Assembly: GCF_038967635.1 (NCBI RefSeq)
Contig: NZ_CP152413.1
Span: forward strand, 4,216,001-4,280,000
DNA length: 64,000 nucleotides
From: Bradyrhizobium sp. B124
GTDB taxonomy: Bacteria > Pseudomonadota > Alphaproteobacteria > Rhizobiales > Xanthobacteraceae
Direction of reading: 5' to 3'
In this document: positions 50,334 to 56,288 of the stretch, one piece after another
Layout: every line of letters starts with the position of its first letter
Position numbering within the stretch: position 1 is the first letter of the stretch
The notes under the pieces: generated by a model
Told to the model about the DNA's origin: nothing
What the model saw: only the letters and a program-made list of their open reading frames with translations
Databases searched by the model: none
Made by a program: the position numbers and the translations under genes

Positions 50334-50682
50334 TGCGAAGATGTTCCCTTCAGGTGTTTCAGAGACCATGATCGCGGCGAAAACGCGTCCGCCCACAGCG
50401 ACCATGCATGATATGCCCAGCCCAAACCGCGGCGCCCGGCCGCGCGCACGCAAGGCGCCTACCGGATAAAGGAAGCGGGTCGGCTGCGCAAGCAAGAAGG
50501 GGGTCGTTTGCGCCTTTTAGAGGGGCGACAAGCCTTTGATATCCCCTGAAAATTCCATGCCGCGCCCGGCCGCGCCGGACTGGCGGGAATTTAATGTTGG
50601 GGTGGCCTGACGCTGGCCGTACGGCCGATTGATCGCCGGGCCCATTGCGGCGATCATTCGCCCGTATCAACCGGCCCGGACC
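50334..50682. other. 349-base region between purA and ybaK
   Basis: Divergent promoter region of two housekeeping genes. I see no reading frame with family character, no obvious operator and no repeat; a TTTAGAGGGG stretch near 50515 is the only AT-leaning spot. Confidence 0.4.
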
Positions 50683-51165
50683 ATGCCCAATTCGACACAA
50701 GCGACGATTGCGCTGCGCAAGCTAGGCATTGCCTTCAAGCTCCACACCTATGTCTACGATTCCAGCGCCGAGAGCATCGGGCTGCAGGCGGCGGAGGCGC
50801 TCGGCGTCGACCCGAACCGCATGCTCAAGACGCTGATGGCGGAGGTCGACGGCAAGCCGGTCTGCGCCGTGGTGCCGTCCGACTGCGAGGTCAGCATGAA
50901 GAAGCTTGCCGCAGCCCTCGGCGGCAAGTCGGCCAGGATGATGCGCCCGGCCGATGCCGAGCGGCTGACCGGCTATCATGTCGGCGGCATCAGCCCGTTC
51001 GGCCAGAAAAAGAAGGTGCCGACCGCGATCGACGAGACCGCGCTCACCCATGTCACCGTGTTCGTCAATGGCGGCCAGCGCGGCCTGCAGATCGAGATCG
51101 ATCCGAACGACGCCGCGCTTGCCGCCGGCGCCACGATGAAGGCGCTGGTGGCGACGCAGGACTAG
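50683..51165 (+). CDS. ybaK: Cys-tRNA(Pro)/Cys-tRNA(Cys) deacylase YbaK
   Basis: 160 residues. The YbaK/EbsC fold shows YDSSAESIGLQAAEALGVDP near residue 25, LKTLMAEVDGKPVCAVVPSD (with the conserved lysine at about 50), KKLAAALGGKSARMM, and GYHVGGISPFGQKKKVPT near residue 100. It hydrolyses mischarged Cys-tRNA(Pro) in trans. The ATG at 50683 gives the family start. A family E palindromic repeat begins within its stop codon. Confidence 0.93.
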   Translation: MPNSTQATIALRKLGIAFKLHTYVYDSSAESIGLQAAEALGVDPNRMLKTLMAEVDGKPVCAVVPSDCEVSMKKLAAALGGKSARMMRPADAERLTGYHVGGISPFGQKKKVPTAIDETALTHVTVFVNGGQRGLQIEIDPNDAALAAGATMKALVATQD

Positions 51166-51261
51166 AGCTTCGGTTCCGATTGAATCAGAATCGAAGCTCT
51201 CGACTCTTGTTTTGACGCGTTTGCTTCACGCGAACCGGTGCCCACTTCGCGCGAAAACGCT
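51164..51261. repeat. palindromic repeat family E, intergenic copy
   Basis: The hairpin AGAGCTTCGGTTCCGAT ... AGAATCGAAGCTCT is followed by TTGTTTTGACGCGTTTGCTTC, ACGCGAACCGGTGCCCACTTC and GCGCGAAAACGCT (quoted piecewise). It is the intergenic counterpart of the sequence inside ssuC at 32863-32964. The first hairpin may terminate ybaK. Confidence 0.8.
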
Positions 51262-51269
51262 TCGCGCGA

Positions 51270-51530
51270 TCAATGCGAGGGCTTGTCCCTGTTGAACTCC
51301 GCGCCGACGTAGTCGGACAGGCCGGACAATTCCTCCGCCGAAATATCGTTGACGTTGAGCCTGAGCTGCATGATCGCGAGGTCGAGCAGATGTGCGGCGA
51401 AGGTCGCGCCGGCCGCCGTCACGATGCTGCGCTGCTCGATCAAGACAGCGATGACGTCGCGCAAGCTGCGCATTTGCACTTGATCCATGGCCCTCTGCCC
51501 GATGCTGGCCGTCGTGATGTGTGTTGTCAT
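51270..51530 (-). CDS. small protein of unknown function in the luxI-P450 operon (86 aa)
   Basis: 86 residues, mostly helical: MTTHITTASIGQRAMDQ, then RSLRDVIAVLIEQRSIVTAA, ATFAAHLLDLAIMQLRLN and ISAEELSGLSDYVGAEFN. Its ATG overlaps the P450 stop codon (ATGA), so it is almost certainly translationally coupled to the P450. There is no signal peptide, no cysteine pair and no iron-sulfur motif, so it is not a ferredoxin. The helical, leucine-rich pattern could suit a small regulatory or membrane-peripheral partner. No family recognised. Confidence 0.75.
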   Translation of the reverse strand: MTTHITTASIGQRAMDQVQMRSLRDVIAVLIEQRSIVTAAGATFAAHLLDLAIMQLRLNVNDISAEELSGLSDYVGAEFNRDKPSH

Positions 51531-52891
51531 TGGGATACCGATTGTAATGTGCTGATGGACGCCGCGCTGGCGGATGAAATGTATGGCAGCCGCTCGGCTT
51601 CCTCGCCGAGATGCAGGATGCGCGATGGCAGCTCGCGGACTTCGATGTCGATCGTCATCGGCGGCGGAATCAGCGTCACCGAGGCTTTCGGCCAGGGCGC
51701 CGGATTCGGGCTGACGGCGGTGAAGCGATAGGCGGCTGCGATCTCGAGCGCGAGCAATTGCAACTCGAGCATCGCAACCCCCATCCCGGCGCAGGCGCGC
51801 GGGCCGGCGCCGAACGGGATGTAGGCGTCGGTGTTGTAGCGCCGCGTCATCATGAAGCGGTCGGGATCCTCGAAATGCCTGGGATCGCGCTGCAATTGCC
51901 AGGGACAGATCAACAGCGAGGTGCCGACCTTGAGGTCGCGCCCGCCGATCGTCACCGGCTGCATCACCTCGCGCGAGAACCACCAGGCGCTGGGATAGAG
52001 CCGGCAGACCTCCTTGACAAACGTCGCGCTCAGATTGGCGCGTTTCACCGCATCAAGCCGGAGTTCGCCATCGTCGCCAAGGCACTCCGCCGCCTCGTCG
52101 GCAATGTCGTCCATCAGGGCGGGATCGGCGGCCATCTGGTAGAACATCCACGCCGCAGTCGAACCCGTGGTGTGATGGCCGGCCAGCAGCAGTGTCAGGA
52201 TCTCGTCCTCGAGATCGCGATCGCTCAGGCCGAGCGCCTCGAGATCGCGCAGCGCGCTGCTCGAGCCCGCCTTGCGGCGCAGGCGTTGCACCACCGTCGA
52301 CATGGCAAGCTTGGCGCAGACCCGGTTCTGCCGGCGCCGGTACCAAGCCACCGGACCGAACGGCAACGCGCGGAACATCTCCTCGGCCAGATCGTCCTCG
52401 ATCACGCCGACGGCCTGAACCAGCGCTTCCTCGTCGCCAGACGACATCACCTGGGAGCCGAAGATCGCGACGCAGATGGTCCGGAGCGCCAGCATCGCGG
52501 TGACATGGTGCGGATCGAACGATCCGAGCCGCGCCAGGCTGGCGCCGACCGCGCGGATTTCGGCGCACATATGCGGCAGGAATTTCTCGACGCTGCCCTT
52601 GGCCATGTGCTTCTGCAGCACCGTCCGGCGCCGCTTGTGCTCCTCGCCGCTCAGCATCAGCGAGCTGCGGCCGAGCACCGGCGTCAGCTTCTTGATCAGC
52701 TTGCCCTTTCCGATGTCGGTCTCCGGCGCCTTGAGGATCGGGCGCAGCAGATCGGGATCGTTCACCAGAAAGACCGGCGCAGGACCGAGCCGCAGGGGCA
52801 CGAGCCCCAGCTCGGCCTCGTTGCCGCGCGTCAGCAACAGACGCAGCGGGTCACGCTGGAATGCTCGAACGTCCGAGAACATGTGAGGCAT
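51527..52891 (-). CDS. cytochrome P450 monooxygenase, cotranscribed with luxI
   Basis: 454 residues. The oxygen-binding I-helix reads LLAGHHTTGSTAAW near residue 255, with His in the place of the usual acidic residue before Thr. The K-helix EXXR is KEVCRLYP near residue 300. The heme loop PFGAGPRACAG has Cys near residue 367. A region RRRTVLQKHMAKGSVEKFLP matches the C-helix. It resembles fatty-acid/terpenoid-type bacterial P450s; redox partners are not encoded nearby. The ATG at 52891 has TTGGAG upstream, so the gene begins 41 bases inside the end of luxI; an ATG at 52882 is an alternative. Its position implies control by quorum sensing. Confidence 0.9.
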   Translation of the reverse strand: MPHMFSDVRAFQRDPLRLLLTRGNEAELGLVPLRLGPAPVFLVNDPDLLRPILKAPETDIGKGKLIKKLTPVLGRSSLMLSGEEHKRRRTVLQKHMAKGSVEKFLPHMCAEIRAVGASLARLGSFDPHHVTAMLALRTICVAIFGSQVMSSGDEEALVQAVGVIEDDLAEEMFRALPFGPVAWYRRRQNRVCAKLAMSTVVQRLRRKAGSSSALRDLEALGLSDRDLEDEILTLLLAGHHTTGSTAAWMFYQMAADPALMDDIADEAAECLGDDGELRLDAVKRANLSATFVKEVCRLYPSAWWFSREVMQPVTIGGRDLKVGTSLLICPWQLQRDPRHFEDPDRFMMTRRYNTDAYIPFGAGPRACAGMGVAMLELQLLALEIAAAYRFTAVSPNPAPWPKASVTLIPPPMTIDIEVRELPSRILHLGEEAERLPYISSASAASISTLQSVSQ

Positions 52892-53507
52892 CGTGAATCT
52901 CCAATTGCCGTCCAAGGTCGAGGAATTTGGTCAGGCCGGGATTGTCGGCGAGACCAAGCGGGATTTCTCCGGCGAGCGCCGTCAGCGGGCGGCCCATGCG
53001 ATCATTGCCGATCACCTGCGGCGGGCCGTAGCGGCGGGTGCGGATCTCCATGCGGGTGAGAAAGCGCTCATAGGAAAGGTCGGCGAGCGCCACGAGCGCC
53101 GCCGCCCCGCGCAGCTCGGCGAAGCGGAACATCAGCGCGTAGTTGACGCGTGCCGTCCGCGACCTCGCGACACCAGGCAGCACGCCGAAACGGCTGATTT
53201 CCCAGGCGTCGCGGCGGCTCGGAAAGCGGCGCACCGCAAGCTGCGGGAACACCGACTTGGTCAGATAGGGATAGTCGGTGCGGATCGCCCGGAAGCCACC
53301 GACCAGCTCGGCGCCTGCGAACAACAGGCAGTGCTCGGTATACCAGCTGTCGAACTGATCGCGTTCGACGTCGCCGGTCGTGCTCAGAAGCCAGCCGCAA
53401 TGGTCGACGAACAGCCGCTTGCGCAGCCGCAACATCGCCCCGACATGCGCCGGATCAAGCTCTTCCCTGGTGATGAGTGCATGATATCCGTCCAATGAAT
53501 GCGGCAT
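52851..53507 (-). CDS. acyl-homoserine-lactone synthase (LuxI family)
   Basis: 218 residues. Conserved LuxI residues are Arg29, Phe33, Trp39 (RKRLFVDHCGW), Asp50 and Asp53 (VERDQFDSWY), Arg73 (GFRAIRTDYP), Glu103 and Arg106 (WEISRFGVL). It makes an acyl- or aryl-homoserine lactone from SAM and an acyl carrier or CoA donor. In Bradyrhizobium the relatives are BjaI (isovaleryl-HSL, CoA-dependent) and BraI (cinnamoyl-HSL); the sequence alone does not tell me which. A strong GGAGGAAAGG precedes the ATG. Its 3' end overlaps the P450 gene. Confidence 0.93.
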   Translation of the reverse strand: MPHSLDGYHALITREELDPAHVGAMLRLRKRLFVDHCGWLLSTTGDVERDQFDSWYTEHCLLFAGAELVGGFRAIRTDYPYLTKSVFPQLAVRRFPSRRDAWEISRFGVLPGVARSRTARVNYALMFRFAELRGAAALVALADLSYERFLTRMEIRTRRYGPPQVIGNDRMGRPLTALAGEIPLGLADNPGLTKFLDLGRQLEIHDASHVLGRSSIPA

Positions 53508-53559
53508 TATCCTTTCCTCCAAATGCGGAACATCTGGAACGAAAGGGGCCAAATGTGGT

Positions 53560-53578
53560 ACCCCCGGAAACCGGGGGT
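53560..53578. promoter_or_regulatory. lux-box-like dyad between luxI and luxR
   Basis: ACCCCCGG-AAA-CCGGGGGT is a perfect inverted repeat of eight-base arms. It is centred 62 bases upstream of the luxI start and ends eight bases before the luxR ATG. LuxR proteins bind 18-20-base dyads just upstream of the luxI -35 region, so this is the best operator candidate; it would also cover the luxR ribosome-binding region. Confidence 0.65.
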
Positions 53579-53586
53579 TTTAGTCA

Positions 53587-54360
53587 ATGGGCCTGGTAGA
53601 CGCGATTTCAACCATCGAGGCGTCGGATACCATCGACGAGCTCAGCTCGTCATTGCACCGTGTCATCCAGAACTACGGCTTCTCCGGCTTCGCCTTTGTC
53701 GATGCCGGCCGGCCCGACCTTGATCTGCCCTATCACATCGGCACCTTTCCCGACGCCTGGAAGCGGGCGTATGTGCAGAACGAGTTCGTCCATGCCGACC
53801 CGGCGCTGGCGCGGTCGCGACGCACCAACACGCCGTTCAGCTGGAGCAGCCTGAAGCTGCCGGAGCGCAGCGGACACAAGCGGGCGCCCGAGGCCAAGAC
53901 GATGGATGCCGCGCGCGAGTTCGGATTCAAGGACGGCTTCGTGGTGCCGTTCCATTATCGCGACCGGCTCGGCGCCGTGCATTCGAGCTCGACGGTGTTC
54001 TTCTGGGAAGACCAGCCGCGCGACTTCGACAGACTGTTCGTCTGCCATCGCCATGAACTGCATCTGTTGATGATCTACTGGGTGCAGCGGGCGATGGACA
54101 TCGTCAACCGCGACCAGCGCAACGCGCCGACCATCCTGAAGCCCGCCGACGCCGCCGAGACCATCAAGCTCACGGCACGGGAGAAGGAAGTGATCGCCTG
54201 GGCGGCGCGCGGCAAGACCGTGGCCGACACCGCGCAGATCCTCGGTATTTCGCCGGAGACGGTTGAAGGCTTCATCAAGCAGGCGCTGCGCAAGCTCGAG
54301 GCCTCCAACAAGACGCACGGGGTGGCGAAGAGCATCGCGCTCGGAATCATCGACCTGTAA
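53587..54360 (+). CDS. LuxR-family quorum-sensing regulator
   Basis: 257 residues. The autoinducer-binding domain keeps the LuxR invariant residues: Trp58 and Tyr62 (DAWKRAYV), Asp71-Pro72 (HADPALA), Trp86 (PFSWSS) and Gly117 (FKDGFVVP). The C-terminal GerE-type HTH is LTAREKEVIAWAARGKTVAD, ILGISPETVEGFIKQAL. It senses the signal made by the divergent luxI. The ATG at 53587 is eight bases from a perfect dyad, with no clear ribosome site of its own, so it may be translated inefficiently or from a leaderless message. Confidence 0.93.
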   Translation: MGLVDAISTIEASDTIDELSSSLHRVIQNYGFSGFAFVDAGRPDLDLPYHIGTFPDAWKRAYVQNEFVHADPALARSRRTNTPFSWSSLKLPERSGHKRAPEAKTMDAAREFGFKDGFVVPFHYRDRLGAVHSSSTVFFWEDQPRDFDRLFVCHRHELHLLMIYWVQRAMDIVNRDQRNAPTILKPADAAETIKLTAREKEVIAWAARGKTVADTAQILGISPETVEGFIKQALRKLEASNKTHGVAKSIALGIIDL

Positions 54361-55361: not shown

Positions 55362-56288
55362 ATGTCTGCCACCGATTCCACCACATCGCCTGCGTCCGGC
55401 TCCTGGATCGCCAACCAGCCATATCTGCTGCTCTGCATCACCGCGATGTGCTGGGCCGGCAATGCGATCGTCGGCCGGCTCGCCGCCGGCCATATTCCGC
55501 CGGTGACGCTGTCGTTCCTGCGCTGGTTCGTGGCGTTCCTGATCATCCTGCCGTTTGCCAGGAAGCACCTCGCCAGCGACTGGCCTGCCATCCGCAAGAA
55601 TCTCGGCATCATGATGCTGCTGTCGATGACCGGCATCAGCGCCTTCAACACGCTGCAATACTGGGCGCTCGAGCACACCCAGGCGCTCAACACGCTGCTG
55701 CTGCAATCCTCCGTGCCGCTGATGGTCGCGCTGTGGTCGCTGATCCTGCTCGGCGCGCGGCTGACGCTGGCGCAGCTCTGCGGCGTCTTGCTGTCGCTCG
55801 CCGGCGTGCTGGTGATCCTGCTGCACGGCGATCTCACGACGCTGTCGAAGATCGAGTTCAACAAGGGCGACCTGATCTTCATCGCCGCGCTGGTGATCTT
55901 CGCGCTGTACTCGGTGCTGACCCTGAAGCGGCCCAAGATCCATGGCCTGTCGGTCGCGGCCTTCACCTTCGGCTGCGGCGCGCTGTTCCTGATCCCGTTC
56001 CTGATCTGGGAACTCGGCACGCGTCCGGTGATGCAGCTCACCACCAGCAATCTGCTGTCGCTGTTCTATGTCGCGGTATTCCCCTCGACGGTGGCCTATC
56101 TGTGCTTCAACCGCGGTGTGCAGCTGATCGGCGCCAACCGCGCCGCGCCGTTCTTCCACATGGTTCCGGTGTTCGGCACCATCATGTCGATCGTGTTCAT
56201 CGGCGAGCATCCGCAGGCCTTCCATTTCATCGGCTTCGCGCTGGTGCTGGCCGGCGTCTTCGCGGCGTCGCGGAGGCAGAGCGCATGA
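55362..56288 (+). CDS. EamA-domain drug/metabolite exporter (copy 1)
   Basis: 308 residues with ten helices and two EamA repeats: ANQPYLLLCITAMCWAGNAI at the start, LRWFVAFLIILPFARKHL, and in the second half STVAYLCFNRGVQLIGANRA and FFHMVPVFGTIMSIVFIGEH. It belongs to the DMT superfamily, secondary exporters of amino acids or other metabolites. A paralogue with the same length and motif order is at 61287. A short hairpin follows the stop. Confidence 0.9.
   Translation: MSATDSTTSPASGSWIANQPYLLLCITAMCWAGNAIVGRLAAGHIPPVTLSFLRWFVAFLIILPFARKHLASDWPAIRKNLGIMMLLSMTGISAFNTLQYWALEHTQALNTLLLQSSVPLMVALWSLILLGARLTLAQLCGVLLSLAGVLVILLHGDLTTLSKIEFNKGDLIFIAALVIFALYSVLTLKRPKIHGLSVAAFTFGCGALFLIPFLIWELGTRPVMQLTTSNLLSLFYVAVFPSTVAYLCFNRGVQLIGANRAAPFFHMVPVFGTIMSIVFIGEHPQAFHFIGFALVLAGVFAASRRQSA

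Follow-up and report, generated by a model that had tools for sequence, protein, structure and literature searches.

Among the closest described systems, CinS inactivates PraR in Rhizobium leguminosarum (PMC4149787), MmaP binds PraR in a pull-down in Methylobacterium fujisawaense (PMC10790750), and a crotonase-family gene linked to luxI is needed for the signal of the R1-I1-crotonase system of Mesorhizobium japonicum (PMC10470506); these papers and those named below are cited from the excerpts available. For Bradyrhizobium prioriisuperbiae BL16A, the excerpt reports three luxI genes, five unidentified lactones in one medium, and a first luxI/R locus in which luxI has a downstream terpene-associated monooxygenase that is left unexplained (PMC13136126); because there are three luxI genes, the lactones are assignable to no one of them. 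Here we analyse a stretch of 64,000 nucleotides of Bradyrhizobium sp. B124 (contig NZ_CP152413.1, positions 4,216,001 to 4,280,000; hereafter the window), in which luxI, a cytochrome P450 gene and a small gene for an 86-residue protein overlap beside a divergent luxR. A first reading of this DNA, made from the sequence only, knew of no described function for such a trio. This stands for the luxI-linked P450, which no paper among the matches listed in the open-access literature explains (subscription papers were outside the search), and calls for qualification otherwise, as CinS, MmaP and the Mesorhizobium LuxI-linked enzyme have been described.

With slightly better than even confidence, we propose that the P450 tailors the LuxI signal that is read by LuxR and that the small protein disarms a PraR-family regulator. 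LuxR and its signal would turn on one coupled luxI-P450-small message, from which LuxI would produce an acyl-homoserine lactone and the P450, produced in step with LuxI, would oxidise the acyl chain or the acyl donor. The mature signal would then carry an unusual oxygenated or desaturated chain recognised by this LuxR. The small protein, a predicted helical hairpin, would bind and disarm an XRE regulator of the PraR family, which could be the product of the gene next to luxR or the PraR of the genome, and would thereby tie cell density to a second regulon, as do CinS in Rhizobium and MmaP in Methylobacterium.

Pairing of luxI with the P450

We searched 149 genomes, the window's own included, for LuxI (E<=1e-20), the P450 (E<=1e-40) and the small protein (E<=1e-13). 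This luxI type and this P450 occur in the identical 14 genomes, which belong to three genera, and the two genes are adjacent in all 14. In a sample of 397 genomes of the order, LuxI profile scores have a bimodal distribution, with 11 genomes scoring above 200 bits and all remaining matches at or below 102, and the P450 profile (E<=1e-70) finds these 11 genomes plus one more, G219, where the P450 match is partial and a partial LuxI match lies on a different contig. Other LuxI types also occur in the genus. Among the 19 best-scoring LuxI loci outside the clade, from well over 100 matches, none has a P450 match within about 1.5 kb, with some of these flanks ending at contig ends.

A scan of named genomes with the LuxI alignment yielded 22 loci, of which 17 are of the window type and come from Bradyrhizobium (including B. 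altum, oropedii, viridifuturi, embrapense, uaiense, acaciae, macuxiense, mercantei, tropiciagri, pachyrhizi and semiaridum), and five are distant, from Bradyrhizobium sp. Ghvi, Microvirga pudoricolor, Amorphus coralli and two metagenome-assembled genomes. The P450 is present in 22 of 22, as in 14 of 14 relatives above, and for this LuxI clade the outcome under which most relatives would carry luxI without it is not what we see. Measured from the P450 start aligned to that of the window, luxI and the P450 overlap by 41 bases at 14 of the 22 loci, including all five distant ones, where LuxI is only 42-49% identical, and by 62 bases at the other eight, where luxI is seven codons longer. The P450 and the small gene overlap by 4 bases at 16 of the 17 window-type loci. 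The overlaps are old. In the seventeenth, a B. viridifuturi draft (L076, 5531-7148), the P450 match breaks near codon 404, with luxI and the small gene intact. Eight further clade loci (L143-L150) all carry luxR, luxI and the P450, and the aligned P450 start there precedes the luxI stop. The pair is also found on a plasmid (L181): the 573-kb p1S06B of a soybean nodule isolate of B. japonicum, typed as conjugative, bears luxI and the P450 with the 41-base overlap, adjoining an IS1380-like element.

Two side observations concern more remote loci. A plasmid of Methylosinus sp. C49 encodes this kind of P450 in two annotated pieces (L182, 5729-7151) with IS66 genes before it, and no luxI is annotated in the stretch viewed. 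At the level of the class, 7 of 15 LuxI loci (L124-L138) have a P450 match of 22-40% identity nearby, and in L128, L129, L132 and L134 a small open reading frame (ORF) sits between luxI and the P450. The trio may thus exist more widely, in other gene orders.

To the extent of genes of at least 100 aa, which the clustering covered, the conserved core is exactly luxR-luxI-P450. Among 17 loci of about 9-13 kb each (the window, L086, L089-L093, L143-L150, L181 and L069), the only families present in more than three are luxI (17), the P450 (17) and luxR (16, as the contig of L069 ends early). Any further cluster that reaches four loci consists of frames overlapping these three genes, and the clusters of three represent close kin (L147, L149 and L150) or again an overlapping frame. 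An enzyme gene is thus linked, by pairing and adjacency, to both a synthase and a receptor, as in a three-component circuit. The protein distances are correlated as well: over 20 of 21 loci (L069, which lacks luxR, was dropped) the coefficients are 0.94 for LuxI-P450, 0.97 for LuxI-LuxR and 0.93 for P450-LuxR, and over the 16 loci left when four near-duplicates are dropped they are 0.895, 0.94 and 0.87. Such correlations would fit a shared chemical made by LuxI plus the P450 and read by LuxR, and we take them as supporting rather than decisive.

The protein itself has the marks of a P450, scoring 178.7 bits against PF00067 (cut-off 22.8), with the heme motif FGAGPRACAG, EVCR as its ExxR and AGHHTTG in the I-helix. 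An acid is the usual residue at one position of this helix, where here a His is found. That the P450 makes a separate metabolite under signal control, with the link to luxI serving co-expression, seems unlikely to us. P450s under quorum control are known, and the nearest curated NCBIfam model is a terpene monooxygenase, at 139.1 bits against an equivalog cut-off of 700; at this score an identity as a terpene P450 of the albaflavenone/epi-isozizaene type was rejected. However, no further gene of at least 100 aa recurs in more than three of the 17 loci, so no shared pathway can be seen nearby, and in the 397 order genomes the P450 occurs apart from this LuxI clade only in G219, with its partial matches.

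A role in the opposite sense, in which the P450 inactivates the signal by oxidising the homoserine lactone and acts as a co-produced brake on autoinduction, is in our view quite improbable. Oxidation of the acyl chain of a lactone lowers signal activity, and strict pairing with luxI would fit a dedicated brake too; the excerpt of PMC5479921 moreover cites Chowdhary et al. 2007 for a P450 that oxidises the aliphatic chains of these signals. Yet the distances of LuxR and the P450 are strongly correlated, which a LuxR that recognises the oxidised product would lead one to expect, and making a maker and a destroyer from one overlapping message would look wasteful. Both a brake and a separate metabolite are less consistent with the pairing, the absence of other shared genes and the LuxR correlation than tailoring is. 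Given the strict pairing, the lack of other shared genes of at least 100 aa beyond close kin, and the correlated distances, tailoring of the acyl-homoserine lactone read by LuxR is the most likely role of the P450. The sequence-only reading had left open whether the P450 modifies the signal, its precursor or a second product; the tie of the P450 to the signal genes is now supported, and its chemistry is inferred. If the P450 does finish the signal, this LuxI clade of Hyphomicrobiales, with many Bradyrhizobium of soil and nodules, would communicate in an oxidised dialect, one that would escape panels made up of standard homoserine lactones.

As for the synthase, LuxI scores 53.3 bits against PF00765 (cut-off 24) and is the sole match to this family in the genome. 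It bears the catalytic motifs of LuxI synthases, RKRLFVDHCGW (R..LF....GW), ERDQFD (E.D.FD) and EISRF. The locus had first been assigned to the bja/bra type, an assignment that we abandon: judged by scores rather than by a tree, the solved synthases 3p2f, an 'AHL synthase' that we take to be TofI (64.5 bits), and LasI (57.7) outscore the 4-coumaroyl type 6wn0 (38.1) and 5w8a/5w8c, presumably BjaI (35.2-35.3). An acyl-CoA-type synthase like BjaI, BraI or RpaI finds no support in the same scores.

The small protein and a slot with two cassettes

The small protein reaches no Pfam cut-off (best 12.9 bits against 27) and has no match in NCBIfam. It is under purifying selection, with dN/dS of 0.155, 0.231 and 0.297 in three comparisons. 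AlphaFold2 predicts three helices at a mean pLDDT of 80, with ten-residue blocks at 89-97 over residues 21-60. A structure search of the PDB gave 56 matches at E<=10 and none at E<=0.001, and is uninformative for a helical hairpin.

The window locus is placed between purA-ybaK on one side and an XRE gene and a membrane-protein gene on the other. Window-type small proteins (E<=1e-13; the next match is at 6e-5) are found in 18 of the 149 genomes, 10 of which have luxI-P450 in this slot and eight (G012, G037, G041, G045, G051, G073, G081 and G085; loci L171-L180) a second cassette, LysR-GNAT-isochorismatase. The order in the second cassette is MFS, small gene, isochorismatase-family hydrolase and GNAT (about 405 aa), with a divergent LysR gene and then the XRE gene. 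In G045 and G051 this cassette is spread over contigs, and that of G041 has only a partial match for the MFS gene and none for ybaK. Matches to the GNAT protein extend over at least 399 residues in seven of these eight genomes and nowhere else in the 149; the start of the G045 protein is seen at a contig end, and the remaining matches of the search are three GNAT-domain proteins of other families and this partial one. The small proteins of the second cassette, seven of eight aligned, are 46-53% identical to that of the window. The small gene is therefore retained in eight genomes where LuxR, LuxI and the P450 are all absent from the slot; at another place, G041 additionally carries luxI and the P450 as a pair, accompanied by a small ORF of a different kind.

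The synonymous divergence from the window was computed for six loci (L080-L085; L081 without purA and ybaK). The values are 0.33-0.52 for luxR, luxI and the P450, 0.10-0.19 for purA, ybaK and the membrane-protein gene, 0.17-0.34 for the small gene and 0.20-0.27 for xre. The divergence of luxR, luxI and the P450 above that of the flanking frame suggests a mosaic history, in which the three genes were swapped together, as allelic blocks, inside a steadier frame.

Of 90 genomes searched for the luxR-adjacent XRE gene (E<=1e-10), 12 have it, and these are precisely the 12 of the 90 with the small protein (Fisher 4e-15). Its product is 27% identical to the PraR-like protein of the genome (E 8e-11), and the region of its recognition helix is degenerate; instead of an ordinary repressor, the protein may be a partner resembling PraR. 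The PraR-like protein is a 140-aa HTH_3 protein encoded at genome position 5774333 beside an lnt-looking gene, and we call it PraR by eye from published descriptions. A second family of small proteins, paralogs of the first, gave 14 matches, of which 12 were examined as loci (L002 and L020-L030), and eight of these 12 have a PraR-like XRE gene no more than about 1.5 kb away, one of them truncated by the locus end. The second-family locus L002 has its features at 1474-1725 and 455-847.

The earlier suggestion that the small protein is a partner or inhibitor of the P450 finds little room in these results. It was already hard to see the protein as a ferredoxin-type redox partner, a candidate that we rejected, since none of its 86 residues is a cysteine that could hold an iron-sulfur cluster. 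Moreover, eight related genomes keep the small gene and XRE without a P450 in the slot, which makes partnership with the P450 improbable. A wider accessory role, as a chaperone, inhibitor, scaffold or anti-activator of the P450 or of LuxI/LuxR, we consider doubtful. It would fit the ATGA coupling to the P450, a P450-hairpin fusion at one locus (L145), and the small ORFs that follow the P450 in distant loci too; set against it are the homologs of the second cassette, which sit in a slot free of P450, LuxI and LuxR, the paralogs that adjoin XRE genes, and the missing cysteine. By analogy with CinS and MmaP, the most likely role of the small protein is to inhibit a PraR-family protein in a density-dependent manner. 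The trio as such is not strictly kept with luxI: the P450 accompanies it in 14 of 14 genomes, and a window-type small protein is absent beside the pair in four of them (G018, G041, G105 and G126).

The small ORFs of the distant loci deserve a closer description. One follows the P450 at all five distant named loci (95, 69, 65, 61 and 83 codons long, with 65 as an alternative reading of the last) and at seven of the eight loci L143-L150. Since three groups recur in related genomes (L092/L093, L143/L144 and L147/L149/L150), these recurring ORFs are likely genes, and single ones could be due to chance. Their relation to the window family was examined with a profile of 11 of 13 ORFs or tails picked by eye (L089 and L146 excluded). 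Seven small ORFs after other luxI genes, also picked by eye, score 9.0, which is not above their shuffles (up to 11.5). The window and distant small proteins have a common position and a hairpin-like pattern, and a link between their sequences is suggestive only.

Several points weigh against our proposal. Linked genes that descend together are expected to give correlated distances as well. The lux-box-like dyad upstream of luxI is perfect, with 8-bp arms and a shuffle p of 0.02 (200 shuffles), but p<=0.05 is reached in only 4 of 19 loci, namely the window, its close kin L084, L090 and L148, so that it was given up as a universal lux box and is claimed just for window-type loci and their near relatives; judged by anatomy, the operon is likely to be under LuxR control. 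The Fisher value for XRE and the small protein is overstated, because the two genes co-occur in part through being physically linked and inherited together. No HTH family is matched by the XRE protein, with nothing found in Pfam at 0.05 or NCBIfam at 0.01, and its model is too poor for use (pLDDT 58). The paralog loci apparently represent one orthologous place, with XRE proteins 96-100% identical, and probably do not count as eight events. In L145 (4958-6439) the P450 has a fused C-terminal hairpin-like tail resembling the small protein; it is either a natural fusion or an assembly frameshift, and it favours a P450 link for the small protein. The profile of distant ORFs, compared with 14 rows of the window family, reaches a score of 16.5 (60 column shuffles gave at most 12.8), with a probability of only 2.6%. 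Lastly, L069 and L181, beside IS/transposase-like genes, show no evident small gene.

The two cassettes could be explained by a plug-in slot, although we offer this tentatively and think it rather less probable than otherwise. The small protein and the PraR-like XRE would form a fixed output pair, and the inputs would be swapped: either luxR-luxI-P450, with a P450-finished lactone, or LysR-GNAT-isochorismatase/MFS, which would be an unrecognised non-LuxI signalling system feeding the same small protein. The exchange of cassettes offers a clean test of whether different signals share one output, set by a small protein, and the second cassette hints at a GNAT-domain protein as a possible new signal synthase.

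Layout of the locus

The positions of the features are collected in Table 1. The sequence-only reading had put the overlap of luxI and the P450 at about 41 bases and the P450 stop over the start of the small gene; from the reading frames the values are exactly 41 and 4 bases, the latter as ATGA, and with the three genes on one strand beside luxR and the overlaps conserved in relatives, its description as one coupled unit is supported. By anatomy, the genes may form a single transcription unit, as is the case for CinS and MmaP. Ribosome-binding-like sequences were seen by eye 5' of luxI and of the P450 (TTGGAGGAAAGGATA-ATG and TTGGAGATTCACG-ATG), and none by eye before the small gene; lacking such a sequence of its own, the small gene is suggested to be translated by coupling to the P450 at the ATGA. 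A motif scan of 51100-53800 found no sigma-70-like match inside the operon, and the one terminator-like match inside it is weak (shuffles give 1.7). As had been said from the start, no ferredoxin or reductase gene is seen adjoining the operon, which is unremarkable given the 36 Fer2 matches in the genome.

Table 1. Positions in the window of the genes and repeats at the luxI-P450 locus
Feature	Positions	Strand	Basis or detail
luxI, acyl-homoserine lactone synthase, 218 aa	52851..53507	-	ATG 53507, stop 52851; PF00765
Cytochrome P450, 454 aa	51527..52891	-	ATG 52891, stop 51527; PF00067
Small gene, 86-aa helical protein (predicted)	51270..51530	-	ATG 51530, stop 51270
luxR, 257 aa, divergent from luxI	53587..54360	+	PF03472 (autoinducer-binding) and PF00196 (GerE); W...Y........DP motif
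Lux-box-like dyad ACCCCCGG-AAA-CCGGGGGT, between luxR and luxI	53560..53578		Inverted-repeat search, shuffle test
XRE/PraR-like regulator gene adjoining luxR, 128 aa	54705..55091	+	Similarity to the genome's own PraR-like protein
ybaK-type aminoacyl-tRNA editing gene (flank, outside the system); start perhaps further downstream	50629..51165	+	PF04073
Membrane-protein gene (flank), kept with both cassette types	55362..56288	+	Conserved flank
Inverted repeat, 18-nt arms, in the interval between the small gene and ybaK	51164..51200		Inverted-repeat search

By its appearance, we take the membrane-protein gene to encode a DMT-type transporter. Directly 3' of the small gene, the interval 51164-51269 contains inverted repeats, which from their look are presumably a dispersed Bradyrhizobium repeat.

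Comparison with described systems

A similar gene neighbourhood is that of BL16A (PMC13136126), where the excerpt gives the neighbourhood only, without an overlap, a small protein, a pairing or a mechanism, and where three luxI genes are present against one here. The marine Rhodobacteraceae strain MOLA 401 makes poly-hydroxylated acyl-homoserine lactones, and modification of the acyl chain by a P450 is the hypothesis of its authors; in that case the P450 homolog is somewhere in the genome, with no luxI linkage given in the excerpt (PMC5479921).

The small gene is best compared with CinS and MmaP, by position and description and not by sequence. With CinR-CinI-CinS/PraR (PMC4149787, PMC5977203), as far as the excerpts describe it, the locus shares a luxI-type gene and a small gene, co-transcribed there, a LuxR-type regulator and a PraR-family XRE protein in the genome. 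It differs in that the P450 lies between luxI and the small gene and that a second PraR-like gene is next to luxR. With MmaR-MmaI-MmaP (PMC10790750) it shares a domain-less small protein encoded downstream of the synthase, co-transcription being a feature of MmaP; according to the excerpt, the MmaP gene comes immediately after that of the synthase, not separated from it by a P450 gene, and encodes 59 aa instead of the 86 aa here.

The P450 has its counterpart in the Mesorhizobium R1-I1-crotonase system (PMC10470506), in which an enzyme gene is likewise linked to luxI and its enzyme helps to make an unusual acyl-homoserine lactone. The excerpt gives a crotonase-family enzyme and an 8-bp gap for that system, whereas the present locus has a P450, a 41-bp overlap and a putative role in the signal. 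If that role is real, the P450 would be the second enzyme class dedicated to a LuxI, after the crotonase.

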